From assembly GCA_030141605.1 (NCBI GenBank), contig JAQGDQ010000050.1, forward strand, positions 628,971 to 692,970: DNA of 64,000 bases, written 5' to 3'. A program made the translations under genes and the position numbers. Every line of letters begins with the position of its first letter. Position 1 is the stretch's first letter. Shown here one piece after another: positions 15,801-51,200 of the stretch. The notes beneath the pieces are model-generated. The model made no database searches. It saw nothing but the letters and a program-made list of their open reading frames with translations, and was not told where the DNA came from. Origin of the DNA: Tubiluchus corallicola. Taxonomy: Eukaryota; Priapulida; Priapulimorpha; Priapulimorphida; Tubiluchidae.

Positions 15801-18800
15801 CTTAAAATTAATAGGAAAATGGAATGCTGTGTTTTGCAGATGATATAAGGGAAAGATTAGATGTCCTAGATAAAGTGCGAAAAATGGAAATGGATATTGA
15901 GATGATGCTAGCACCTATAGAAGAAGCTTATGATGCCATGATTCACTATGACGTTACTGGAATTGTGAAGGATTCTGAAGTTGTAGAATCCCTTATATAT
16001 AACTGGAAGAAGCTGCTGTCACAGGTAACAATCTCATAGATTCTAGCATGACTCTATTCACCTGCAGTTGACAGTCATAAAGATCAGGGCAGCTTATATA
16101 AACAAAGCAACCTTTTCCACTTGGTCCTCAACAATTTTTGCGAATTAACATATTAAGCTTGTCAGAGGTTGCCTAGTTCTGCACTTTTTTGCTAATTTTA
16201 GGGAAAAATAAGAGTCCAGTTGATTTGTATGGCTCAGTACACACTTTCAAGCATTTTTAGTGAGTAAATGATTAAAAAATTCAATACAGTTGAGTGGCAA
16301 GGAGATTGTATAAATGCAAAGTATTCAGGCTGATCCATAAAATCAAATTTTCTTTATTATATAAGTATTATATGTGAATCAAATCGGCATGCAGTAAAGA
16401 ATCTTTGAATATTTTGCTCACGTTAAGAATTCATTGGGTTCAGTAATAGAGAAGAAGTAAGTAACATAGCAGTTTATTATCATCAGCTATATAAACGTCA
16501 TATAAGACTGGATGTACCTAAGAACTTCTACTCCCAGGATGTAATCAGTCACTGGAACAGACTGCTGCAAGCCGCAATTGACGCTACAAGCATAAATCAA
16601 TTTAAAAACAAAATAGGATCATATATCAAAAAGTTGCAATACGCAAATCTAAAATACTTTTGTAACAGTCCACAGTGCTGCCACATTTAATATGCATCTA
16701 TAGCCCTTTTTACTGGGCTTTTGCATTTATTTTACCATCCACGAAGCTTTGAAAATCTCAGAGGATCTATGGAGTTGATGGCATGGGACCTCTTTCCAGG
16801 TAAATTTAGCTAAATATTGTCCTTTCATTCCTATTCGACCTGTTCAAAACATGAAGGAAAAACGTGAACAAATGTTCCATTGTTCTAAAAAAAGGTAATA
16901 CTCACTGCAACAGGAGCTGTGTGTACACCTGACAATTTCAGTGTATGATTTATACAAGTGACAAATTTTGCTTTTGGGTTAATTTCTTTGATAGATTTCT
17001 GCAGACCGGTGTGTTGACACAGCAGCATTATCATAGGCCTGCCCTCTGCAGTTTTGTATATCACTTCCTTCATTCTTTAGTTTTTCCACAATCATAGTTG
17101 AAACATTCTCAGCGGTTTTATTTTTATTTCAATGAAATCAACAAAAGATTCCATAACCTTGACGATATTCCCGTCGATTATAACGTAATGTAAAACCTGG
17201 CTCATTTAATCTTCACTGCGAAATATCAGGAGTGCTGTGGAAGGTCATAGAAAAATATTTAGCTTGTCTTACTTGCTCAATTATTTTGCTCTTCATGTTT
17301 TCTCCCAAAATTTCTATAAACTCATTATCCCATTATCAAACGAGTTTACCCATAAACTCCTTGGTAAAGTAGCAAACTTTTTACCAACCTTGATTCTCAA
17401 AAGGTGTTCAGAGGTGATTCTCAAAACATTAGCTTCGTAGTACTGGCTAATATTTCACTAATAAATGAACCAACTGTAAAAAATTTCGTCTTTTTCTGAT
17501 TGCTTCATGGCGAACGTCAATCTCATCAGTCTCACAACCAATTTGTTCTCGGTGACCCCGTAAAGCCAAATTCTGTTTAGCTGGGAATCTAATGATATCA
17601 AGTAATCTTGAAAGAATCTCCCTCCACTTTTTCACTTCGTTTTCTCTAATTTCTGGTTCTTTCTTATCAATTGTTGCTCCACAACTATCCTAATTTCTAA
17701 CTCCTTCCATTGGGTGAAAGCTTGGACGTGAGCTATACTACATTTGTGCTCAATAGTTTAGGATTCAGTTTCCACCACATGTTGAATCCATCCACGGAAT
17801 TAAAGTGGGAGTGACTTCTGTTTGAAAGAGTTTGCAACAAAAGCAGTAAACTGCTTTTTTTGTTTAGGAGAGTATACCATCCACGATCTCAAAAGTTTCT
17901 CACCAGTTGGCAGAGTTTGAAGAAACCCCTCGCGTGTTAATCATCTAGTTTTTTTTTCCTTTAGCAGATGCACTCTGATGCATCTCTTACAAGGTAGGTT
18001 CAGTAGGTTCAGCAGTAGCAGTAGGTTCAGAAACTGCTTCAGTGTCTGCTAAAGCAGTCAGTTCAGCCTCAAAAACCGCTGCAGTTTCAGCAGTAGCACT
18101 GCGTTAAAGCTCAGAAAAGATCCGGTTTCAGCAGTTACAGTAGGTTCAGAAACTGATCCAGTTTCAGTAGTAATGGTTGGCTCAGAAACTGCTTCAGTTT
18201 CAGCAGTAGCAGTGCGTTCAAGCTCAGAAACGGCTCCAGTTTCAGCAGTTCTAGTAGGTTCAGAAACTGATCCAGTTTCAGTAGTAATGGTATGCTCAAA
18301 AACTAGGGAAGCTATTGTCTGCTAAGGAAGAAACCATGCACCCTGCATGCTTCAAAAAGCAAAAGTCTCGTTACTTTGCAGCTTCTTCAAATTTTAACAG
18401 AGCAAAGATTATATGAATGTCAGTTAACTTCAGCAAAGAGTCAGTTAATACAAAGCGTGCACAGCGCAGAAACTTTGAAATCGGAGAGTGAAAGACTACG
18501 CAAATATCACAAAGCTATTAAATTACTAATTATCAATGAAACATCATCACTTCTCAGCATTTGTCTTTTTACTGTTCCGACACAATCAACTTTTTCAGTG
18601 TAATGTCCTGGCCCACCAACACAAGTATTGCTATACTCAAAAGTAAGGCGTACTAAACTGGATGACCATAAAGATCTTACAGATGTGCGTGTACACTATC
18701 GTCAGGGGAGTCTCCGCCTACGTGAATTTGTTTTACCTGTTGTTTAGTGTAACTGTCATTGTAACCTAAAGCTGCATTCACGTTTATCATCTTAACAAAG

Positions 18801-24800: not shown

Positions 24801-27800
24801 AAATTTCTAGAGCTTTCCACGAGCAACCAGCCAAATTTCTAAAATAGTCTTTTCCCATATTCATTTCATTATTGTTGTGTTGTATATATGATATGATATT
24901 AAATTTAATTAAACACGGAATATGATATTAAATTAAAAAGCCAGTGTTTAATACAGTCAAACCTCGTTATAATGCCTCCTTTATCATGCTAACCTCTCTT
25001 AAAACCTAATTTTTGCACAATTTTAAATGTCCAGATTTGCATAGATTTGCACCTCATTATAATGCCAAACTCACATAATGCTAACTTTTCTGCAGTCCCA
25101 AAGTAGAGAGGATTAAGAGGTTTCACTGTACCTATATTTTGTTATAGACGGCATTTTCTCAAGACAAAATGGGCCGTGTCAGTTAGTTTGGTTGAAGATG
25201 TCATACTGCTATTAGGTGTTGTAATTGCCATTTGAGTGACACGTGTTTTTTGATCTTCTTGTATAAGTATATCATATTAAGTATATGAAGTTCTTAATAT
25301 AAAACTGCTTCACCTCTACCAGTTTAGTGCCTCATCTCAGACAATTATCCTGATAATGAGCAATGATAATGATACTTTATCCTGACAAGTTCCTGTCCTG
25401 CTACAATCATCAATTTTAGCAGGCCTTCTGCTAAGTGTGATATTTTGATGTGCAGTATGCTCAAAAACAATTTGGCTTCTCACTCCTGTATTAAAACTCT
25501 CTACCATGTGCATTCCTTCTTGCATTGCTTGCCTTTCTAATGTGGTAGGTTTTAGATTGCAGTCCTTTCTTGACACTAAATTTTCTTTTAAATTACCAGC
25601 TTATTTGAGTATTTTTTTATTTTGCTGCGGCAAGAGCAAAATTTTTGGTGAGTGTGTAGCATAATATTTTATTTGCTTATTATTACTTTAGGAAGCTAGA
25701 AGATTTCAAAACATTGATAAAACTTGGGTGAGGCTCATCAAGCGTGCGCATGAAGTCACAAATGTTGTTCAGTGTTGTGTCGGTGACGAATCACTTGGTG
25801 TTCTGCTGCCAAGATTGCAAGATCAACTGGAAATCTGTCAGAAATCACTTAGTGGTTACCTGGAAAAGAAAAGACTAGTTTTCCCCCGTTTCTTTTTTGT
25901 TTCTGATCCTGCCCTTTTGGAGATTTTAGGTCAAGCCAGTGACCCACACACTATACAGGTGCAAAGCATTTATTGCTCTTACAAGTGGTTTTTTACCATA
26001 CATAACTAAAAGTAAAGTGGTACTCAATATGAAAACCTTTTTTGCTGTTGCGCCATTTTCTTAAAGCACAGAGTACTTATATTTCCAACTGCATGTGTTT
26101 TATGTTATTCATATCTGCTTACAGTAAAAAAGTAAAACAAATTTAATTATAAGTAGTTGTAAAAATGTCATTTATGCTGCGAACAAGAATTATGGTAGTA
26201 GCAAGCAATCAGTCAACAAGAAAAACTTTTCTTTTACTTTGAGTGATTTTTCTGGGCTGCTTTTTAAGTGCTTCTTTGTAAAGTGAGTATAACTCTTAAA
26301 GTTGGGTGTTTGTAAAAGAAGCCAACATTGTTAATATGGACAACAGCTTTATAGCATTTGGTAATCCTGCCTTCGACAGACTAGTTTATCTCTGATTCCT
26401 ACACTGGAATCTGATTAAAAAGGTGCTAACAAGACCAGTATTTAGCTAGATCAATGAGTCCCAATAATTTGAATAATCTAGTTATTTGTTCTCCTTTCAC
26501 TGAGCTTCTGTAACTTCTTCTGAAGCACAGCATATCCAATAATGAAGTGTAGTAAAAACAAACTGAAGATATTTTTTCTGGGTTTACTTGATCTGAGTTT
26601 TTATTAGCTCCTTTTTGTTCGAGTAGTACAGATTATAAATGTAGATACATGTTTGTTTTTCATAGTCTCATTTGCTGAGCGTATTTGACAACACGAAGAA
26701 TGTTGAGTTCACAGATGATGAATACGAAAAGATAGTCAGCATCACATCGCAAGAGGGAGAGAGAATTGAGCTTGAGAATCCAGTTTTTGCCAAAGTAAGT
26801 GACTGGCTGATATCAGCTAGGTGCAAAATTGGATTGGTTTAAATAAGACAATTCAGCTTTTGGTTGTTATTTTCCATGGCTGTACAGGTAGTCATTGACT
26901 TACAACCACAATTGGGGCTGGCCGATTGGTTGTAAAATGAATTGGATGCGAGTCGGACCTGTATATTTTAGCGGTGTGCCTCTACACAGAAGTATGGTGG
27001 CAGCTACGATTAATTTATCAAAACAGATAGCGATTTGAAGTTAATTTGATTAAAAAATAGAAAGAAATATGAGTTATAGTTGGTTTTGTATAATTAATTC
27101 ATTTTAATTCACTTAAAAGTTGCTATGGGGTCATAAAGTGGAACAGTTGTAAGTCGTAGAGGTCATAAGTCCATGACTACTTGTATTGTAAATCAAATAA
27201 TTAATGCGTGCTGGAATTTTTACGAATTTTGCATAGAAGTCCTGACATAATAATTTCCAAGCATGTAAATTACAATAATAATAAAGTCGCTTACTGGCTA
27301 TATAACAGTATTAGTTGAATGGTTATTTTACATAGGCCAGTCTTTTAGTTTTAAAATCACTATTAGTTATTTACTGCACCATCTGGACTTATGAGTCCGC
27401 TTTCTACAACTTTTAGAAAAATTAAGTACATGTAGTTCTAGATAGCATGTCATTTATTGCAATGTTTGGTAACTTCTACTTTTACATCAACCTCAAATGT
27501 AAACTATTTGTTATGTAAATTCTCTTTTAACAGGGCAACGTTGAGTGTTGGCTTGGGGACTTGCTGTCAGCATCTAAGAATAGCATACAGCACATTATTT
27601 CCAATGCCGTCTCGGAAATGGAGTTACCTGATTTTAATCTTCTCACTTTTGAGAATAATTTTCCAGCCCAGGTAAGACCATTTTCCAGTTCTACCTACCT
27701 TGATGTGTAAGTAACATTCTGCCTCAGAAAGTGCAAAACACAGTTTCTTACCCATCTAGCTAGTTTGTAAAGAAGTCAGTTAATTAGCTTCATGCTAGCG

Positions 27801-30800
27801 CTATTAAAATCTGTTAATTACTTGTAAAGTGTAATTTCTTCAGGTTTACACCCAGTGTGAAGGAGTAAATTAAAGTGCATGTTTTGGCAGATATATTGCT
27901 TTCTTGTTATTTTAGAATGTATTAGCAATGTTTTTGGTTCTTTGTCAGAGTTTTAGTCAGGTCTACTAAGCCCGAAATTTTGATGAAATGGGGACTGACT
28001 GGATACACTGCCAAACCTTCAAGAGTGATCCTTTAGGTCATCATTCTCACAGCATTTTGGACATTTTTACAAAATTTCACATTTTGGGCTCTTGTCCCGA
28101 GTTATTTCAAGAAAAGACCTAATCTTAATGTGTGCTTTGGTAGTGCACATGTTGTTCTGCATTTTTGTTATATTTCTGCCATTTATTAATTTTATACTTT
28201 TATTTTCACAGTAGACCTGGTCATGTGACTAGAAATTTGTCATTAAGAGTAATAAGATACATATACTTAATTAAGATACTTACCATACTTACCTATGTGA
28301 AGATAATTCCATCGTGTCTCCATCTACAGAGCGATTTAACTGTACTTACCTGTTACTTACCTCTTGAAATGGTCCAGTGAATCCTGGTCGAGTTTTCATG
28401 GCTGGTCGATTTCAAAACTGATAGACATGTTTTTTGTGTCGTGAATTATGACTAATTGTAAAGTTGAAAGAGGCAAAGATGAAAGTCAAATTCATTTATT
28501 ACATTAATATGATTACTTGAACTTGATTTAAAAATTCAGTATCATTATTTCTGTTTATCAAAGTTTGTTAATAAGCTTATTCTAACATGCAAAAGTAGTG
28601 AAAATCTTTATTTTATTACAGATAAAACGTTAATGGTTACTTGGTTAATCTGTTGCATGGTTACGTGGTTACTTGGTTAACTAGTTGGTCAGTCACTTGA
28701 TTTATTGTGTTTGCCTATGGACATCAAATAAAGCCGATTAAATCACTTGACGCTTTGTGGACATTTTTTACAAAAATCTCAAACATGTTTTTGACTTGAT
28801 GAGCATCACTTTGATTTCTCTGTGATCCTTTGCTCCTGACTTGTATTAGAGCAGCATTTTTATTGACTTTGGGGTATTGATTTTTCGCAGGTTGGTAGAT
28901 TGGGTTTACAAATAATGTGGACCAAAGACTCGGAAGCAGCATTGCAGCAAGCACGTTCTGACAAGAAAATCATGGCTGCCACCAATCAGAGGTTTCTTGA
29001 CATCTTGAATCAATTAATTGACATCACATCAACTGAATTGACCCAAATGGACCGAATCAAGTTTGAAACACTTGTGACGATACATGTGCATCAGCGTGAT
29101 ATATTTGATGATATGGCAAGTTTTTCGATATTGAAAAATCAGCTTTCATAAAAATTGTCCCTGTAATTGTTGTACCAAGAAAATGACTCAATGATATACA
29201 AAGGCATGTACTTTTAACATTCTGCACAATGACATTCTTTGTTAGCACCACCCACTGGTGTTCACTGCCCCATTCAATATCCCTAGATCAAAGCAGAAAG
29301 TCACCACACTACTCCATTAAGGTACCAGTACACATAAATAAAAATTGTTGCTTAGCCGCAGTTTGTAAAAGGTTATCAGAACTTGGGCCTCTGTTTTTAA
29401 ATTTTGATCCCTAACTCCAATTCTTCCCAATTTTGGATTAACAGAAATTATTCCATTCATAAAACCTTCAGCCTGTCTGTCACACATGTAAGTTTTAACA
29501 ACTTGCTGTTAAAAGTCTAGAAGGAGATTAAGTGGCAAAACATTTGAGAAAATAGATATTTGACCTTAAAACACATACCCAAGTTCATCAACTGCCTCAC
29601 CAAAATAAGACCCTCGTGGTCCAGTAAGCTGTTTAACTTCTCTCTCTCTCTCTATCTCAGTTTCCAGTTTTCATGTTACAAAGTCAAACAATTTATGTAT
29701 CGGACTAAAACCTAAATTGCAATTCAAATACAATAGTGTTTCCCATTTTCATTGTAAATTGAAATACCAGTGAGTTACTGACTGAAAACACCCTGGTATG
29801 TTGTAGGTTCGTTTACATGTGAAGAATATTAGTGAGTTTGACTGGCTGAAGCAATCAAGATTCTACTACCGTGATGAAAGCGATCAGTGTGTTGTTTCAA
29901 TCACTGATGTTGACTTCATTTATCAAAACGAATTTCTTGGTTGCACAGAACGATTGGTCATTACTCCTCTTACTGACAGGTATACACAAGTAAAACATAG
30001 TACCTGCCATTGTACGAAATTTTTTACATTAATTGTTTTAGTGACTGGCTTGTTATACAAAAAGTGCATCTGTTGCAACACAACAATATGTAATTTTCGC
30101 TGTATTTTAAGGCTAAGGACATACCTTTTCGTAACATGGTGTCACATTTCTGGGATTGCTAATCATTGGAATGTTCGAATGTGCTATCAAGCATTTGGAT
30201 GAAAACACATTAACAACCAATTAGCTTCATCAGTTGATGCACAATTCCACTTGTTGCCACTGTGTCACTGTTTCAGACTTGAGATACATAGAAACAATAA
30301 TTAACAACCACGGTTGTTAATTAAGGAAGTGCTGTAGCACAATGCCAATGTCACTGTGTTATGTGATTTTTTGGCAAAATTTAATCAGCATTTTTTTATC
30401 ATGTCCAAAAAAGTTCTCTGGAGACAAGGTACAGTAACTACTTGCTCAAAGAGGCTAATGCGTTCTTGCAAAAAGGCATCTGTCAATTTTTCCTGGTAGT
30501 TTAATTTTTAAACCACTCTGCAACAAGCTACTAGTTGTTTTGCTAGAAATAATGCTGGTTGCTGGTAAGCAGAGCTCGTATCTTTGAAGTCAAATATTAG
30601 ATTAATAAACATTATTAATGAAAGCTGAACCCCCACTGGAAAAGCCTTCAGGCAATTTTGTATTGACAATGTTCTGGTAACAATAGCGACAAGGCTGTTC
30701 ATGTTGCCTTGTTCTGTCGTCATTTTTGTTTATTTTGTTTTCACAATAGTGTTTTTTCGATTAGTAAAAAAACAATTTACTCACTATAAATGGTTCTTTT

Positions 30801-33800: not shown

Positions 33801-36194
33801 TTGTACTTGTTTCAAGGTCTTGCTAATTCTTATTGTTTTAAATGACTGATTATATGCTTGTATGTAATCCTTGGGACATTAATAATCTGCCAGCTGATAG
33901 GTACCATATGGTGGAAATTACTTCTGCTCATCTCAGTCAGTAGAAACTCTTCGTGAATAAACCCTTCTGAATATCCGGTTCAGAAAATTGACATATTACC
34001 CTCTTCATTGCACATACACATTGCTATACATGTGTTGCTACACAATAGTTTGCAACTGTTGTGGTTGTAAACTACGTTATGATGCTTCAAAGTAGAATGC
34101 ATGAAAAATTGGGTCAAATATCAATGTTTTGTAAAAACAAATGTTAAATACATTGGACTTTTATGTTCCAGCATCAAAACATCAGGCTATTGTTTAAAAA
34201 ATACTAAAAGTTTAACTTTATAGCTCCTTACCCACTTCTCTGCCTAAAAACAGTATTGCATTTGCCAAAAACTCGCATTTTCAAATTCTGATTCTCCTTT
34301 CTCCTTTAAAAGGAGCAAACTTTAACAGCGATCTTCTAATGGTTTTTTCAGTAATGCAGTATGCACCTGAACTTCAATGCAGATTATCTTAGTTTTGAAA
34401 TAACATAGAGCACTGAACTTGGTATCAAAATGATCCTTTTGAATAGAGGTTCTGGATATGTGAATAACTAAAAAAGCTGCCAACTTCCAGACGTTTTTGC
34501 TATGCAAACACACATATTTAAATTATTTATTTGATATGTCACTGAGGTCTAGTTTTGTGATCAATAAGTATATTTTGAATTATTTTATACATTTAGGTAG
34601 ATGAAGATGAACCATTGTTCCTTTCACTAATTGATGATCTGTTTCCTGGCCTGAAGCTTGATAAGGGTCATTATCCAGAGATAGACTTAGCAATTCGAAA
34701 CCAGGTATTAGCTTACATTGCCATTAAAAATATATCGGTATGGCAGCGTAACCTTATTAACAAGGGTTACCTTTGCTGAATAATTAATGACAGTTCAGTT
34801 CCAGCTAATTAAAATAACTGATTTTCGATTTATTTTAAAGTTGGGTTTTTTAAGGTGTCAAAAGCAAGTGTGTGTTATCCCTGACCTTACGTAATAAGGT
34901 ATATGATTACTCATGTCTAAAGAGGAACAACTTAAAAGTTTCTGCATAGAATTATTTTGGGAAAACCTAATGTTCGTATTGCGAAGACAATTTCTGAAAA
35001 TTATTGTGCTGCAGAGATGAAATGATTGAAATCTTAAGAAAACACACCAGGTTATCATTCGACTACTTTCAGCAGATAGACGTCAGCTTCTAAATGCACT
35101 TTTGCTAGCAAATTGTCTTACACAATAAGACTTTTCACAGTTTCGTTGTGAGCATGCAGAGTTGATGTAGGTAGTAATAGTTCAGTAATCCAAGGTCAAA
35201 GGTTAAGTGTACCACAGCAACTCGCCTTAATTACAACGGTCACTTGACATGTGGATAAAGCAATGCCATATGCCACATCAGTTCAATAACTTCAGTTGCT
35301 TTACATGGTCTTTAACTGTAGTCTGTGCATACAATGATTTACTAGCAGGATTTTGCTTGGGAACAAGAAAAAATGAACTAGGTAAGGTTCTAAATAGCTG
35401 TTAAAACTGTTACTATTACAACAGCATGGGCTGTGAGTCATTTTAAAGTGTACACAAATGTGTTGTCTGGTTCACTTAACCTTTGACCTTTTCACAATCA
35501 TCATCAATCGCTAGAAGTGTGACCTTTTCACAATCATCATCAATCGCTGGAAGTGTGAAAAGGCTTATTATTTAGCTATGCGGGCATGTAGGCTTAATGT
35601 ATGTGATTATACACCATTTTAGGTGAATATAAATAAATTTTCAATCCCGGGAGGTGCATATACACCATATACTCCCATATTCCTATTAAACACCATTAAT
35701 TATAGTGCACCTTTCTGCATTTTGCAAAAAACATATGCAGATAGAGGAAAAGGCATTATTGAGGGGATTCGGATTGTCTCTTTGCTGCACACTTCTGCTA
35801 GTCTAGTAAATGCTTGAGTGGGTTTATCAAAACCCAAGCAACATATTTTTGTCTTTAAGGTTCATGCACTTTTTTAATTATTTGTTTCAAGGTAAAAGCT
35901 GCTGGTTTGGTACACCATGAACCATGGGTGTTGAAATTGATTCAGCTGTACGAGACACAGCGGGTCCGACATGGCATGATGGCATTAGGGCCTCCAGGGT
36001 CTGGCAAAAGTGCATGCATTCAGGTTAGAAATACATTGTAATGAAATGAGTTATCATTGCAAACATAATAATGTTAATGTAACTAAAGTCATGATGATAC
36101 TTACTACGTGTAAGAAAAAAGATCCGCTGTAACACTATTTGGAATAAAATTATTGTTTTTATTGTTTTTATTATTATTATTATTATTATTGTTA

Positions 36195-42200: not shown

Positions 42201-45200
42201 GGCTATCCGCTACAGTGTAGGGCAATGTAGTTAGGTAGCTCAGTAAAGCCAGTAACATGGCTGAACGCTATTGTGTGCGTATGTGTCTTAGTTATTTTCA
42301 GTTCAGCAAGCAGGAGCTTTTGACAAATGGCAATATGAGCATTATTTTAATTTTCTAAGTGCAGAATAACTAAATACAACAGTGCGCTGCACCTTACGCC
42401 AAGGTAAAAAACTGCTAATGACAGCTTTAGGCAAATTGCAGATGCAATTCTTTGATTTCACTAAAGCCAAACAGATGCATTCTTTTTGCCAAAGTGTCAC
42501 TCACATTAGCAAACAAAAGTACTCAGTAATCAGTAAGGGTTTACACTTGCTAAAAGCAACCAGTGGTGATTTGATTACAATTTTTCAGAAGTAATTAGTA
42601 TTCATGACAAAATAATTGCTAAAAGCAATGAACCATCACTTAATTGACCGGAGAAGTAATCTGAAAACTATGGGAATAATGTTTCGATGTAACTGGAAAT
42701 TTACTGGACCTCAAGTACACTGAACACATTGGAGCTAACTGAAAGCAGAGGAAATGCTAAGGTGATAAAAAAACATCCGTGCATTGGTTTTTACAAGCTT
42801 ATGACACATCTACATCTGTTGGGGTATCCTGAGTTACTTGAGCCGCTGCTCCGATCATACTTCTCAAGTTTGCAGGCTGTGTGAGACACGCAAAGGTTGT
42901 ACACTAATTTTGAGGACTTCATAGATTCTCTATTGTTGTAGCAATACTTCGCCGTAACAAATGCTTCAGTACTAGTGGCTTTGCTTTGCTTTGCTACGTC
43001 CTGGCAAATGGTTATAATATGTACCATCCAGTATTTATGTGGAGTAATAACTGGTTGGAAATTCTGCATACACCAACAAACTATAAGTTGTTTTACAGTT
43101 AACTATAAAACATTTTGTGACTAACCCTGTAATTAAGAAAAGATAGATTAAAATTGAATTGTGGTGTATTTCCATTAATAGTTTATTTGCATAACAGGTG
43201 CCAGGGTATGAATATCCAAAGAATTTTGTGCAAGAGTTTTCTATGGTTCTCGTTCCTAATGTAGATAATGTGAGAACTGAGTACCTCATTGACAAATTGT
43301 CTTCGCTTGGAAAGGCAGTGCTGTTAATTGGTACGTAATTAAACAGATTTGTTCACTAGTAGTGAAAACTAGTATGTGCTTTTTTGAACACAGAAGCTAT
43401 TGTTTAGCCAGTGTGGTGGATTTATGATAATTAATTATTTAGAGTTAATTGTTTTTGATGCTACTGTTTAAATAAAAAATAGCTTATTAATGGATAAGTG
43501 CAACTACATAGTCCAGTAGCTACAGATTTTCTACTAAATTAAGATTTGTTTTAGTTTGTTACAATAATATTGCAAATGAATAGAATGTATAAACTTATAA
43601 AAAAACAGTTTTTAATAAACAAGAAAGATCATTGCTCAATTACCAGCTTGAATTTGGTTTGTGAATCTGGATATGTATGAACCGTGACCGTGTCTTGTGT
43701 TGTTAACAAGCTCTGCAGATTTTGCTAATTTTATAAAGTAATTTTATGTTTAACATGATAAAAGTGATACCATTTTGTGTGTAAATATCTACAGAAGAAG
43801 AAGGTAATAAACGTTTGCACTTATACAGTTGGATTTAGATATTAAAAGTGAAAAATTGTTGAAATTCTTCAAGTTCTATTGCAAATCGACAATTCATGGT
43901 CACCGTACCTAGTTGAGGCTATTGTGTCATTGATTAGACCTTAATTGGTCTATTCACCTGTCAACAAAAACATTCAGGTAGATAGCAACGCAAACTGGTC
44001 CTACAATGGGAGAAAGGAAAAGCTGCGCTCTATGTAGATATGAGGATACATATATTTGGATACGCTGCATGCTGCAGATGAGTGAGAACATTTCTTTTAT
44101 TGTTTTTACAAAGTACTTTTGCTAATTTTTGCTTTTGAAAACTTTGAACGTATAATAGACTGGTTACCATTTGCAACGTATTTCCCATATACCTGCATAT
44201 ACTAAGGTCACGCTGAAATAATATAGAAATAGACTGGTTCACTTCCCCTATTTCTGATACCTGCATTATTTGTTGAATATGTCTGACAAACCGAAGAGTA
44301 TCGATGAGCTGTGTGCATGTGACCGTAAGAAGCTGAAAGCCATTAGAAATCATACTGGCTGCCCCCCCCTTCGGCCGCTTCTGGTGGTGCCGATTCAGCT
44401 GTGTTGAAACGCCTGGATGAACTATCTAATAATATTAACACTAAATTTCAAAATCTGGAGGAAAAATTGTCCCAAAAGATTGAAGACAAACATTCTGAAT
44501 TAAAGACTGAAGTGAATGTCTTGCGTCAAGTTGTTAAAAATCAACAACGGTTTTTGGAGCAGGTTGACGGTCGTCTCCGAAACCAGAACTTAATTATGAT
44601 GGGCTTAAGTGAAAATGAGGATATCGATGGTGCTAATTCCGACGATGATAAGATAAGGAAAATTCTTGATGTAGTGGATGTGGAAGCTGCTGTCGTCTCA
44701 TACAAGAGACTCGGTACAGCTACGAATGGCCGTGATCGTCCTGTGTTGGTCATTGTTGAAAATCATGACCAAAGGGACAATGTCGTGAAGAATGCTAATA
44801 AGCTTCAATCGTCTGCCAATGCTGCTGTGAAAAAAGTCAGAGTGAAGCGAGACACCCACCCTGCAGTTCGTGCCGAATGGAAGCGGCTATTTGACGCTGA
44901 GAAGTGCGAACGTGACAAACCTGAAAACCGGGGATGCCATATTGAGTTTGACAAGAAAAAGCGTGAGATCACCCGGGACGGTGTTGTTATTGATAGTTGG
45001 CAACCAATGTCTTTTTTGTAAACAATCGAGATAGTTGCACTGAACTCCGTATTACACATTGGAAAATTAATGCCGTGAAAAATAAACTGGAGATCGACTT
45101 TGTTCGCCAAAGTTTATGTAAATCTGATATGATATTCTTAAATGAAATCAAAACTCCGTTGAAGTTCACAATGCCTGGGTATAAAACTCTCCGAACTAAT

Positions 45201-48200
45201 CAAGCAGCTGGTCACCGTGGTGGCTGTGCTATACTGATTTCAAATGTGCTAGCCTCTTCGATTCAATCGGTCGAATTTGGTTCCGATGTTATTGTGCTAC
45301 GCCTCAATAATATACCTGGTATTGTTTTTGTATGTGTTTATCTCACGCCATCTGACTCTCATTACCACTCACTTGAATGCTTAGCAAAAATCAACGAAGT
45401 TATGATGTCCAACCCTCATGATCAATTTGTGATACTTGGTGATTTGAATGCCCGTTACGGGCCTGCTATTAACAAATTTTTACGTAATGTTAGTGACAGT
45501 GGTGCACGATATCTTGCTTCCGAGGATTCGATTGGATCCCCAAATGAAAATGCCAAAGTTGTTTATAATTCTTTTAACTCTTTAATCGTTGTAAATAACA
45601 TTCAGTATAAAGGCAGAACATTTAAAAGTAATCTGACGTATAGAAAACGTGAGAATTGGATTTCTGAATTAGACTATTGTCTTATTTCTCCTGCACTAAT
45701 CGATAGTGTTGTCAATTTCACTGTCAATCAAGACTTACGATTACCTTCGAATCATGCCCCTCTGTCTGTGATTTTTGATATCAACATGTTATCTCGTGGA
45801 GCCTTACCTCACAATCTTCTTATCAGATCCGAAGCCTTAGGTGCTCATGCAGCTGAAGTTAAAACTCCATACCGCAAACATTGTAGCCGTCAGATCCGTA
45901 TTGCTGAAACAGACTGTGTCGAATTTCAGAGAGTGATGTCTTCAGTTGAACCTCCTGATGATGTGGATGATGTAAATAGTTGTGTTACTGATATTAATAA
46001 TGTTTTCCGTGATAAACTGATTAGATGTAAAGCTCCGAATCGTCTCATCAATCGTTATCAGCCGACGGATCGTTGGCGCCGTATGCTCGAGCTCAATGAT
46101 TCTAAGGAAATATGGAATGCCATAGACTGGAAAGGAAACACGATTGAATCTGAATCCTTTGAATCTCCAACTAGCGAAGAATTCAAACGTCATTTCGAGG
46201 ATCTTCTCAACCCAGATCGTGATGGTCCAGAGGACTTATTATCACTGTGCGATGGTCCAAGTATCCCTATCACAGATGATCCGATCGCTTTCGATGAGTT
46301 TGTTTCTGCTGCTTCCGAATGTAAATCAAGTAGTAGTGGTGGACCCTCTGGTATTCCTGGTGCTGTGTTCAATTTTATCCCAGATACTTGGATTAATTAC
46401 CTGTGTTTTGTTCTGAATTTCATATTCTTTTCGCGATCTTTCCCGATTCCGTGGTGCTTTAGCCGCCTTGTTACTATTTTTAAGAGAGGATCTCGTAAGG
46501 ACTGCGATAATTACCGCGGTTTGTCAATCATGGATTCCCTTGCGAAAATATACGATCGAATTTTGTGCAAACGTTTAGAGATGTGGTTCAAACCCGATAG
46601 GGAGCAGGCTGGCGCCCAAAAGGGTAGATCCTGCCTTGAGTGGATTGTGACTCTAAGACTATTAATGGACTATGCACTGTTTAAAAAGAAGAAATTATAT
46701 ATCGTTTTCGTAGACTTCTCGAAAGCTTACGATAGAGTTCCACGTTCTGGTTTGATTAGGGCCTTGAGAGCTCTTGGCTGTGGTCGTGTGATGCTTTCTG
46801 CTCTTGCTGCCATGTATGTGAATACGCAGCTGGTCCTTGGTGCTGCCGTTATTGGTGTTACATTAGGTGTGAAGCAGGGTTCTCCGTCATCCTGTTTCCT
46901 CTTCACACTGTATATTAACCCTCTTATTCGTGAATTAAAGTCTAGATGTGGTCTCGATGGTTTCCTAGGAAATTTACACTGTTTGATGTTGATGGATGAT
47001 ACAATCTTATTGTCAACATCTAGGGAAGGTATTATTCAAAAACTCAGTATCCTTATTGAGTTCTGTGATCAATCCGGTATGAAGGTGAACTTAAAAAAGA
47101 CTAAATTTATGGTTATTAATGGCGATGCTGTTGATCGTCTGGACCTCGTAGTGAACCCCCTTACTGTTAATCACTGTGACTATTACGTTTACCTCGGTGC
47201 TGTCTTTAGCTCAACAGGAAAATTTAAACCCGCTCTGGAAAAACACTGCGAAGACAAATATTGTCACGTACTGAAGTTCGTGTCATTTATTTCTAAGAAT
47301 TCAGCTTATCCTTTTGCAGTTAAGAAGTTAGTTTTAAATGCCGCGCTACTTGCTGCAATTACTTACGGATGTGAGTCTTGGCTATGCAATGTCCTTAATC
47401 CTATTCAAGGGATGTATATTAGTGTTATTAAATGTTTACTCGGTGTGCGACGTACAACTGCTAATGATTTGTGTCTCATAGAGTTGGGCCTTCCCTCCCT
47501 GAATGGTTTTGTGAAGGACACCCAATCTCGCTTTTTCAATAAGATTGTTCGCTCAAGAGTGAATATTCCTGATGATCCGTTTATGATTGTTTACAATTTG
47601 TGTCGCGAGTCAAACACCCCATGTGCTCGATATTTGCGTAATATAACTGGATACCGTGGTGATTTTATCGATGAAGACTCTGTTCATGTGGACAAATCCA
47701 AACAGAACTGCACGTAATATGTGAATGCCCTGAAACACGTATCTTAAGAAACAATTCCGAGTTAATATTTGATGATTTAGTGACTTTTTTCAGCGGAAAT
47801 CCCGCTGATATTTGTAATTTTGTACACGATGCTCTAGCCATTTTTGGTCTCTAATTGTTACTACACCATACATTGAGTGATCTATGGACTATGATCAGCC
47901 TAAATTTCTTAAATGTTGCAACTATCTCGAAACGATTCTTATGATTTTTTGTATATATCTTTGACCATGGTCAATAAATAAATAATAATAATAATGTGAA
48001 TCTCATTACTATTTTTATTACTTTGGTACTATAAGACTAATTTACAAGTCTTTATATTAGATTTATTGTGGGAAGAAGGATATCTGTTTACTTGCCACAA
48101 ATAGATTTAGTTCTTCATATAAGCAGTGCAACAAAAAAATTTTGAATAAATTAATTTTGATTAATTGATAAGGGATTAACAACATTCCCATTTCAGCACT

Positions 48201-51200
48201 GTTAAATCTAATAAAGTAACTTGTGTCAAATTCTTGGTAATCTCTTTTTTGCAAAATTTTGCCTAAATGCCCGACTAACTACGTAACTAAATGGCTAGTG
48301 AATTTTTAGGTGAACAAGGAACAGCGAAAACTGTCATGATCAACAACTATTGCTCAAAATACGACCACGAACAGCATTTGTTCAAGAGTTTCAGCTTTTC
48401 AAATGCAACAACTCCAATGATGTTTCAGGTGAGTTTCACCTTTTTGAACTCAATAAATCTGATGATGTTTTAGGTAAGTTTCAGCTTTTCAAATAAAAAA
48501 CTCTGACAATGTTTCAAGTTCATTTGAGCTTTCATACACAATAACTTCGATGATGTCTCAGGTGAGTTTCAGCTTTTCAAGTGCAACTACTCTGATAATG
48601 AGTCAGGTAAGTTTTGAATTCTTTCACATACAGCAACTCTTTAAAGGTAAGTTTCAACTCTTATCAAATGCGCCAACTCCAATGATGTTCCAAATGAGTT
48701 TCATCTTATTAAACAAATTCGATGATGATTCGGATGAGTTTCAGCTTTTTAGATTCAAAAACTCCTATAATGTTTCAGATGAGTTTCAGCTTTTTAGATG
48801 CAAAAACTCCAATGATGTTTCAGGTGAGTTTGAGCTTTTTAGATGCAAAAACTCCAATGACGTTTCAGGGGAATTTCAGCTTTACCCATGGAAAAGAACT
48901 GATGACGTTTCAGGTGAGTTTCAGGCTTACTCATGGCAAAGAACTGATGACGTTTCAGGTGAGTTTCAGCTTTATGCATGGAAAAGAACTGGTGACGTTT
49001 CAGGTGAATTTCAGCTTTACACGTGGAAAAGAACTGATGACGTTTCAGGTGAGTTTCAGCTTTATGCATGGAAAAGAACTGATGACGTTTCAGGTGAGTT
49101 TCAGCTTTACACATGGAAGAGAACTGATGACGTTTCAGGTGAATTTCAGCTTTACACATGGAAAAGAACTGATGACGTTTCAGGTGGGTTTCAGCTTTTC
49201 ATATGCAACTACTCTGATAGTGGGTCAGGCGAGTTTTGAATTCTTTCAAATGCAGCAGCTCTGATAATATTTTAAGGTAGGTTTCAACTCTTGTCAAATG
49301 TGACAAATCCAATGGTGTTCCAAGTGAGTTTCATCTTTTTAAATAAATTCAATGATGATTTAGATGAATATCAACTTTTCAAATGGAAAAACCCAGATGA
49401 TGTTTCAGTAAGTTCCAGCTTTTCAAATGCAGCAACTCCAATGATGTTTCCTGTGAGTTAGCTTTTTTAAATCAAGAACTACAATGATGTTTTTTTATTT
49501 TCATTTAGACTAATACTTTGACAATATTTGGCAGCTTACTGTCCAATTGGAATGATCTAAAATCAGTTCTGTTTGCTTAAATACATGCTTAGCATTTTTT
49601 TTAGTTGTATAAACAAAAATACATTGCAGGATCCAATATAGCAAGACATATCACAAAGCATATCAATTATATTGCATTATCAGAATTGCATTGAATAAGT
49701 AATAATAATTTTCTGTAGTTCCTTCAGGGAAATAAAACTATAGGCACAATTTAAATAATGTGTAAGTTTTTTTTTACTAGCTATAGGTACAAATTTTTAA
49801 GGTGTATCAATTTTTTTTATTATATTAGAGATAGAGACATGTCGAGCACTTTTCACATAAAGGTAAATCACAACTCCAATGTGCCGTAATCATTGCAAAG
49901 AAACCATGCAGCTATTATGATGCCCCACATTTGTTTCAAACAAATTAGTTTTTTATTATGTACCACCTTATCACCCATGCCTTACTCCATTTACATAAAT
50001 TTTCTGTTCACAGTTTTGTAACGTTTGTTAATATTAAAACTTATAGAGAACTATTGAAAGCTACGTGGACAAGCGCATTGGTAATAACTATGGACCACCA
50101 AATGGACGTCGGATGACAATTTTTATTGATGACTTGAACTTACCTGTTGTGAATGAATGGGGTGATCAGGTAAATCTGCAAGCATTTTATTCTTTACACA
50201 AGTGTGACTTGGCTAGAAATGGATGTCATCTTTTTAATTTAATCCCAGAAATCATCTCTTCATTTATACCAATTGTTTGGCCTAATAATACAATTTAGTG
50301 TAGCAGTTCTTTTTTCTGGCATATCAGAAATGCGGTAAAAAACTGGCGAAATGCATTTTCTTTTCCTTCTGTTCAGTATACATAACATACACCACTTTCA
50401 TCTCTTTTATGTCCTGCCGATAAAGTTGATAAGATAATAGAAATAATAGAGTAATTTTTACATTTTTTTGGTTTAATGACAAAGGTGTAGTTTAATTGAA
50501 ATTTTATATACCTGACTATAATTTTCCACTTTCCTCTACATGCCACGCTTTCGTAGATATGTCTGTTTTTGTTGGTTTCTTGTGATAATGAATTAAATTT
50601 TCACTCAGTTTTAATTGACTTTAACAATTTCAAATTTGTGACATTATTGTATCACATTTCCAATGACTTAGCTTTATCGCTTGAAAAGTTAACACGTTGA
50701 GTTTTGCATGGTCTACAAGAATAAAACAGGTGTTGTAAATCACTAAAGCTGTTGTCTTTGTTGCATTTCCTCTAGCCTGTAAAGTAGTGATCACTAAAGT
50801 TGTTGTCTTTGTTGCATTTCTTCTAGCCTACTAATGAGATCACGAGGCAAGTAATGGAGATGAACGGTTTCTACAGTTTAGAAAAACCTGGTGACTTCAT
50901 TAACATTGCCGACATCCAGTTTGTTTCAGCCATGATACAACCTGGTCAGTTATTTTAACTGTTTTAAAATATATTGATTAATTGATAATTTAATCTGTGT
51001 CAATAGTAATTAATCCTAATCCTAACTGTTTTACAATGTTTCTACTTCGAAGACTATACTAGAGTGGTCTTGTATATCAGTTCGATTTGTCTACTACTTC
51101 AATATCGACAACTATTGAGGCTGTTCTTGTCCTCTATGCTTAGATTTTGCTATGGTTGCTATGTAGTACGTTGATTGTCCTCTGGCCTTAGCACTCACTC

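Follow-up and report, generated by a model that had tools for sequence, protein, structure and literature searches.

A 45-bp minisatellite spanning the exon/intron boundary of a DNAH5-like dynein heavy chain gene in Tubiluchus corallicola

How does a coding exon of a motor protein come to end inside the first unit of a long tandem repeat, and does it matter for splicing that the repeat carries copies of the exon's donor? This question is raised by a 64,000-nucleotide (64-kb) stretch of DNA from Tubiluchus corallicola, referred to as the window, which holds a dynein heavy chain gene on its + strand. We favor the reading, at a probability of about 0.8, that the repeat is a boundary-spanning minisatellite of a known but uncommon kind, which is probably neutral and leaves the protein unchanged.

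The gene was identified through protein matches. The best match of the 1,154-residue exon concatenation was axonemal DNAH5 (8j07), with E given as 0. The 80 residues around the array matched DNAH5 (8j07) with an E of 1.8e-35, and for this query a second chain, 9fqr_I3, was nearly equal to 8j07 (123.3 vs 123 bits). The exons and units concerned are as follows.

48310..48428, + strand: array exon of a DNAH5-like axonemal dynein heavy chain, AAA3 Walker A part (DNAH5 homology)
48386..48430, + strand: unit 1, made up of 43 bases of exon end and the GT of the true donor CAG|GTGAGT (unit decomposition, left edge)
48431..49495, + strand: units 2-25 of the 45-bp array, all within the intron (unit list; the TRF end is 49492)
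50047..50169, + strand: next exon, AAA3 Walker B part, which starts RTIESYV... and includes NEWGDQ (DNAH5 homology, ungapped junction)

The array exon contains GEQGTAKT, which we take to be the Walker A motif of AAA3, and the next exon is presumably the Walker B part of AAA3. As read from the sequence, the acceptor AG of the array exon lies at 48308-48309 and its donor at 48428/48429. The next exon has the acceptor ...acttatag (aaaacttatag) and the donor CAG|GTAAAT. Since the listed homologues cross the MFQ|RTIE junction ungapped, 48428/48429 is the expected donor, and on the combined grounds of homology and sequence the transcript is most likely spliced from 48428/48429 to 50046/50047. The intron between the two exons is 1,618 bases long and the array makes up about two thirds of it.

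TRF placed the array at 48386-49492 with a period of 45, 24.9 copies, 71% matches and 6% indels, and a wrap-around alignment divided it into 25 units of 40-48 bases. Both results agree with the initial annotation, which had counted about 25 tandem 45-bp copies, and the unit decomposition bore out its description of unit 1 as a GT preceded by the final 43 coding bases of the exon for AAA3 Walker A. The tandem unit spans the exon/intron boundary, as placed by homology and sequence. The left edge of the array is sharp, with each of the six exon bases before 48386 agreeing with at most 4 of 24 units. Farther upstream, the bases at 48379, 48378 and 48374 agree with 21, 19 and 17 of the 24 units, which is possibly weak older self-similarity or chance.

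The resemblance of the intronic units to the exon was measured with ungapped + strand matches of the exon-end 45-mer. Its best five matches among the intronic units were 42 (at 48781), 40 (at 49410), 39, 38 and 38 of 45, and its best match outside the exon and the array was 25/45. Shuffled exon-end 45-mers searched in the array reached a maximum of 26/45 (n=200), and the control, made of the 45 exon bases immediately upstream of the exon end, matched the array at no more than 22/45. With 42/45 against 22-26/45 in the controls, the exon-specific similarity is thus far above chance, and the lack of any such similarity (the outside match and the shuffles stand at 25-26/45), which the initial annotation had named as grounds for dropping an exon origin, was not seen.

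The direction of copying is also indicated by how the units relate to one another. Unit 1 is the medoid, with a mean identity of 0.792 to the other older units (the runner-up, unit 10, has 0.774), and for 14 of the 17 older intronic units it ranks among the three most similar units. The exon end aligns ungapped to DNAH5, in line with the earlier claim that it is conserved in dyneins. Differences of the 17 older intronic units from the exon number 33/227, 47/233 and 44/246 at codon positions 1, 2 and 3, respectively, a spread that resembles non-coding drift. Silent differences in these units make up 29/124 (0.234) vs 0.178 expected under equal changes, a small excess given here without a significance test. 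We interpret this pattern as nearly neutral, star-like drift away from a constrained center, the exon being the ancestor. Conserved coding, the medoid position and the 42/45 match together give good support to the earlier proposal that the exon is ancestral and the intronic units are copies, and by sequence the exon is the likely ancestor of the array. The ancestor of this minisatellite can be named because it is an exon held by selection on the motor protein, and it offers a built-in reference for the drift and turnover of tandem copies. With an identity to the exon of 0.93, unit 10 resembles it more closely than unit 2 does (0.78). This would not be expected from simple slippage in order, and it calls for conversion, later exchange or drift at uneven rates.

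Several layers can be distinguished among the intronic units.

48564..48735, + strand: old block, units 5-8, repeated 14 units downstream as units 19-22 (pairwise identities)
48871..49185, + strand: young subfamily, units 12-18, mostly ...GAACTGATGACGTTTCAG (nearest-neighbor identity 0.89-0.98)
49186..49365, + strand: units 19-22, second copy of the old block (pairwise identities)

Units 5-8 compared with units 19-22 gave identities of 0.87, 0.73, 0.85 and 0.88. The same spacing of 14 units relates unit 10 to unit 24 (0.82), and the pairs 9/23 and 11/25 are weaker at 0.73 each. A direct repeat of 139 bases with 83% identity, 630 bases from start to start, also lies within the array. Nearest-neighbor identity among the 17 older intronic units is 0.73-0.89 in 14 and 0.91-0.93 in units 9-11. 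The block repeats and the young subfamily point to probable growth of the array over several rounds. Initial copies would have been followed by drift, then by block duplication, and then by a fresh burst in the middle of the array.

The copies bring donor-like sites and a stop codon into the intron.

48471..48473, + strand: in-frame TAG ending unit 2 (translated in the dynein frame)
48559, 48604 and 48644 (48559..48652), + strand: perfect donor-like 9-mers at the ends of units 4-6 (consensus count)
48821, 48911, 48956, 49046 and 49091, + strand: further perfect donor-like 9-mers (consensus count over the window + strand)

The initial annotation had stated that most units keep tttcag|gtgagt. 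This was overstated because the exact 12-mer TTTCAGGTGAGT occurs only six times on the window + strand, all inside the array; what holds is that GT is retained at 18/25 unit ends, leaving 7/25 without it. At 15/25 unit ends GT comes with at least 8/9 consensus positions, and 9/25 (the exon's own included) carry a perfect MAG|GTRAGT. The claim that a cluster of strong U1-like sites follows the true donor does stand, as 9 of the 10 perfect MAG|GTRAGT 9-mers on the window + strand, the true donor included, are in the array. The concentration of nine-tenths of such motifs on one strand of 64 kb behind a single exon, in a gene with weaker placed donors elsewhere, offers a natural test of how the spliceosome settles on the first among many similar sites.

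Donor strength was scored with a matrix of the gene's own donors. The table behind it holds 23 exon ends hand-placed from homology and frame, some from frame and sequence alone, and comprises the array exon, 21 GT ends (three uncertain ones were kept) and one GC candidate outside the matrix. None of the 21 other GT donors is perfect and three have 8/9 positions. The true donor scored 10.1 and the end of unit 5, CAG|GTAAGT, scored 11.4; the highest score of any other real donor, computed with that donor excluded from the matrix, was 9.8. Among the 18 GT-bearing unit ends (exon included), 12 scored at or above the median of the 21 other placed donors. By these scores, the exon's donor is therefore the strongest real one placed, and some of its copies match or surpass it. 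At 29115-29120 (+), GATATG|GCAAGT at a homology-defined dynein exon end is a candidate GC donor.

What would follow from the use of a later donor can be read from the dynein frame. As stated in the initial annotation, the next donor would place a TAG just before the junction. The same TAG at 48471-48473 precedes every later donor tested (17/17), so transcripts that used array donors would be likely to decay; only the first of the 17 downstream donors keeps the frame by length. Selection on the copied donors was looked for in the diversity of the unit columns. For the 17 older intronic units, the nine donor columns had a mean diversity of 0.328 vs 0.283 overall and placed 35th among 45 circular windows, the first being the most conserved. 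With all 24 intronic units the values were 0.264 vs 0.286 and the rank was 19 of 45. No extra conservation of the donor columns was thus seen in column diversity, either in the 17 older units or in all 24. A post hoc core of 23 columns, which takes in the donor and the second TTTCAG, varied less than the remaining columns (0.255 vs 0.311 in the older units, and 0.218 vs 0.357 in all 24). This core speaks against the neutral reading, though it was picked after the data had been seen. We read these data as no evidence for selection on the donors, with the caveat of the post hoc core. The suggestion that the array competes with, buffers or regulates splicing therefore found no support, as the donor columns are not extra conserved and 17/17 later donors meet the TAG.

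No excess RNA structure was detected in 48386-49340, where 20/20 shuffles folded at least as well. Peptides from the array were considered and set aside. Two + strand open frames have no Pfam match. A minus-strand frame of 119 aa at 48842-49198 (-) matched SCIN (E 7.6e-05, 23.2 bits, with a curated cut-off of 23) and, below the cut-off, involucrin (E 7.7e-04); both matches were read as artifacts of a repetitive frame.

One alternative is that the donor cluster is functional. The surplus U1-binding sites would compete with the true donor or buffer it, or divert transcripts to a TAG-bearing poison form that lowers dynein output. The concentration of perfect 9-mers, the score of unit 5 and the 12/18 unit ends at or above the median are consistent with this, as is the early stop shared by the 17 tested later donors. 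In human ABCA7, about 2% of transcripts keep one unit, and longer arrays go along with more exon skipping (PMC5954066). The unremarkable donor columns and the seven unit ends without GT argue against such a role, and the number of sites is explained by copying alone, so we consider it unlikely. Another possible explanation is a chain of recursive mini-introns, in which many units of about 45 bases, each with a GT donor, a CTGAY branch-like motif and a TTTCAG acceptor, would be removed stepwise or at random to give the same mRNA. In a recursive splice (ratchet) site, GTRAGT comes immediately after a pyrimidine-rich AG. Nine juxtaposed AG|GTRAGT sites follow the true donor, and CTGAT or CTGAC occurs near base 30 in 11/24 intronic units, but no pyrimidine-rich tract precedes the AG, where the sequence is typically GATGTTTC. 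The branch-like motifs are short and owe part of their recurrence to common descent, the sites are not conserved, and about 45 bases is at or under the usual lower size limit of animal introns. This chain is very doubtful. As the units close with a duplicate of the exon end and its donor, splicing from the true donor into a unit's AG would restore a donor-bearing exon end and leave the mRNA unchanged. The array could then act as a self-healing splice buffer, trimmed unit by unit in any order with the protein unchanged, a scenario that we regard as a long shot.

Two further alternatives concern origin. If the satellite had come first and the exon end had been captured from it, the near identity of the exon and some units would also be accounted for, but the exon segment is ungapped against DNAH5 and unit 1 is the medoid. 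A search with a unit profile (nhmmer) also found no convincing unit copies elsewhere within the 64-kb window, where the best match outside the array had an E of 0.064, and we give this direction practically no credence. The intron itself could instead have arisen when an exon segment containing AGGT was duplicated in tandem, and have grown later by slippage. The unit carries TTTCAG|GTGAGT, which is the substrate of that model (PMC4974935; PMC2891723). The array ends about 550 bases before the acceptor at 50046, though, and that acceptor, aaaacttatag, is not unit-like, with no units found there by a profile scan. Because the acceptor is far from the units and unlike them, the array does not fit intron gain, which is highly improbable here.

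The reading that we prefer is a probably neutral minisatellite across the boundary. We infer that a tandem duplication, probably by replication slippage or unequal exchange, copied the 43 exon-end bases and the first intron bases into the intron, and that later slippage and block duplication would have raised the number of units to 25. Constraint from the conserved dynein motor sequence that it encodes would have kept the exon copy close to its original state, and the intronic copies would have been left to drift. With splicing from the first donor to the acceptor at 50046/50047, the array would be removed as part of the intron. If a later donor were used now and then, the in-frame TAG would be brought in, presumably yielding a transcript fit for nonsense-mediated decay. 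The nine perfect donors (true one included), in a gene whose placed donors are otherwise weak, count against neutrality, as do the high score of the unit 5 end and the small silent excess. By analogy with ABCA7, where longer arrays go with more exon skipping and reduced expression, "neutral" may also be too simple.

Arrays of this kind have already been described, a point absent from the initial annotation, and the dynein array is a further case. Two papers on amphioxus describe "mirages", a name coined in cephalochordates, as tandem units across an exon/intron boundary, many but not all of which carry AG/GT signals, with concerted turnover and diverged edges (PMC3087553, PMC3902484). Mirages reportedly leave splicing undisturbed, and TnC and PGBD5 are given there as having similar repeats (PMC3087553, PMC3902484). 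For amphioxus, a tendency of the lineage to form such arrays has been suggested. Like the mirages, the dynein array spans the boundary, keeps splice signals in some units and not in all, and has undergone concerted turnover, with a homogenized core and diverged edges. Unlike the mirages, it has a 45-bp unit in 25 copies and lies in a dynein gene, and it is known from the sequence of one haplotype.

A human parallel shows that such arrays can matter (PMC5954066), although any function of the dynein array is putative. The VNTR in intron 18 of ABCA7 has a 25-bp unit and 23.7 reference copies, and its first bases are the donor GT of exon 18; about 2% of transcripts, if the figures follow the listing order of the isoforms, use a one-unit-longer donor (PMC5954066). 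Skipping of exon 19 rises with array length, which also correlates with lower expression (PMC5954066). As in this splice-modulating VNTR, the dynein array starts at the donor of the upstream exon, spanning the 5' splice site. The ABCA7 unit lies on the intron side and starts with GT, whereas dynein unit 1 consists of 43/45 exon bases. A further difference is that effects on splicing and expression have been measured for ABCA7. In human CBS, a 31-bp VNTR, c.1444_1467+7(16_21), is polymorphic in people with 16-21 copies (PMC2630376, citing Lievers 2001). By this notation, its unit joins 24 exon-end bases to 7 intron bases, an architecture shared with the dynein array, and at 31 bp it is shorter than the 45-bp dynein unit. 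Intron gain by tandem duplication of AGGT segments is described for the potato RdRp and for Drosophila cases (PMC4974935, PMC2891723). The dynein array resembles these in the tandem duplication of an AG|GT-bearing segment and differs in showing no sign of a new intron, its copies being contained in an intron whose own acceptor is far away. A literature search, with most subscription journals outside its coverage, found no report of such an array from a dynein gene.

The rest of the gene was scanned for similar events at its placed boundaries, which are not every exon in the window. When 23 donor-side boundaries were searched for copies within 1,500 bases, only the array exon stood out, with 41/45 vs a shuffle maximum of 26; the other donor-side boundaries gave 20-24/45 vs shuffle maxima of 24-28. 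Among 22 acceptor-side boundaries none was comparable to the array exon. The acceptor-side boundary at 25692 reached 28/45 vs a maximum of 26 from 40 shuffles and was treated as noise. No Rfam family was found in the window at the gathering score. A search of viral contigs for relatives of the array returned two pattern matches, none of which was confirmed, and a search of plasmids for the dynein peptide returned none.

Other features of the window were recorded along the way. The intron directly upstream of the AAA3 exon holds a non-LTR retrotransposon at 44347-47717 (+), with frames of 224 aa (no Pfam match) and 906 aa (endonuclease and reverse transcriptase domains). The GC content of 44001-48000 is 0.397, the highest 4-kb step in the window. 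A second tandem array lies at 18068-18304, with periods of 36, 42 and 114 bp and a repeated GTTTCAG. It is covered by open frames of 90 aa (+) and 87 aa (-), and the + frame has no Pfam match. At 35484-35558, a 36-bp unit is present in 2.1 copies with 97% matches, and this repeat is apparently intronic and recent.
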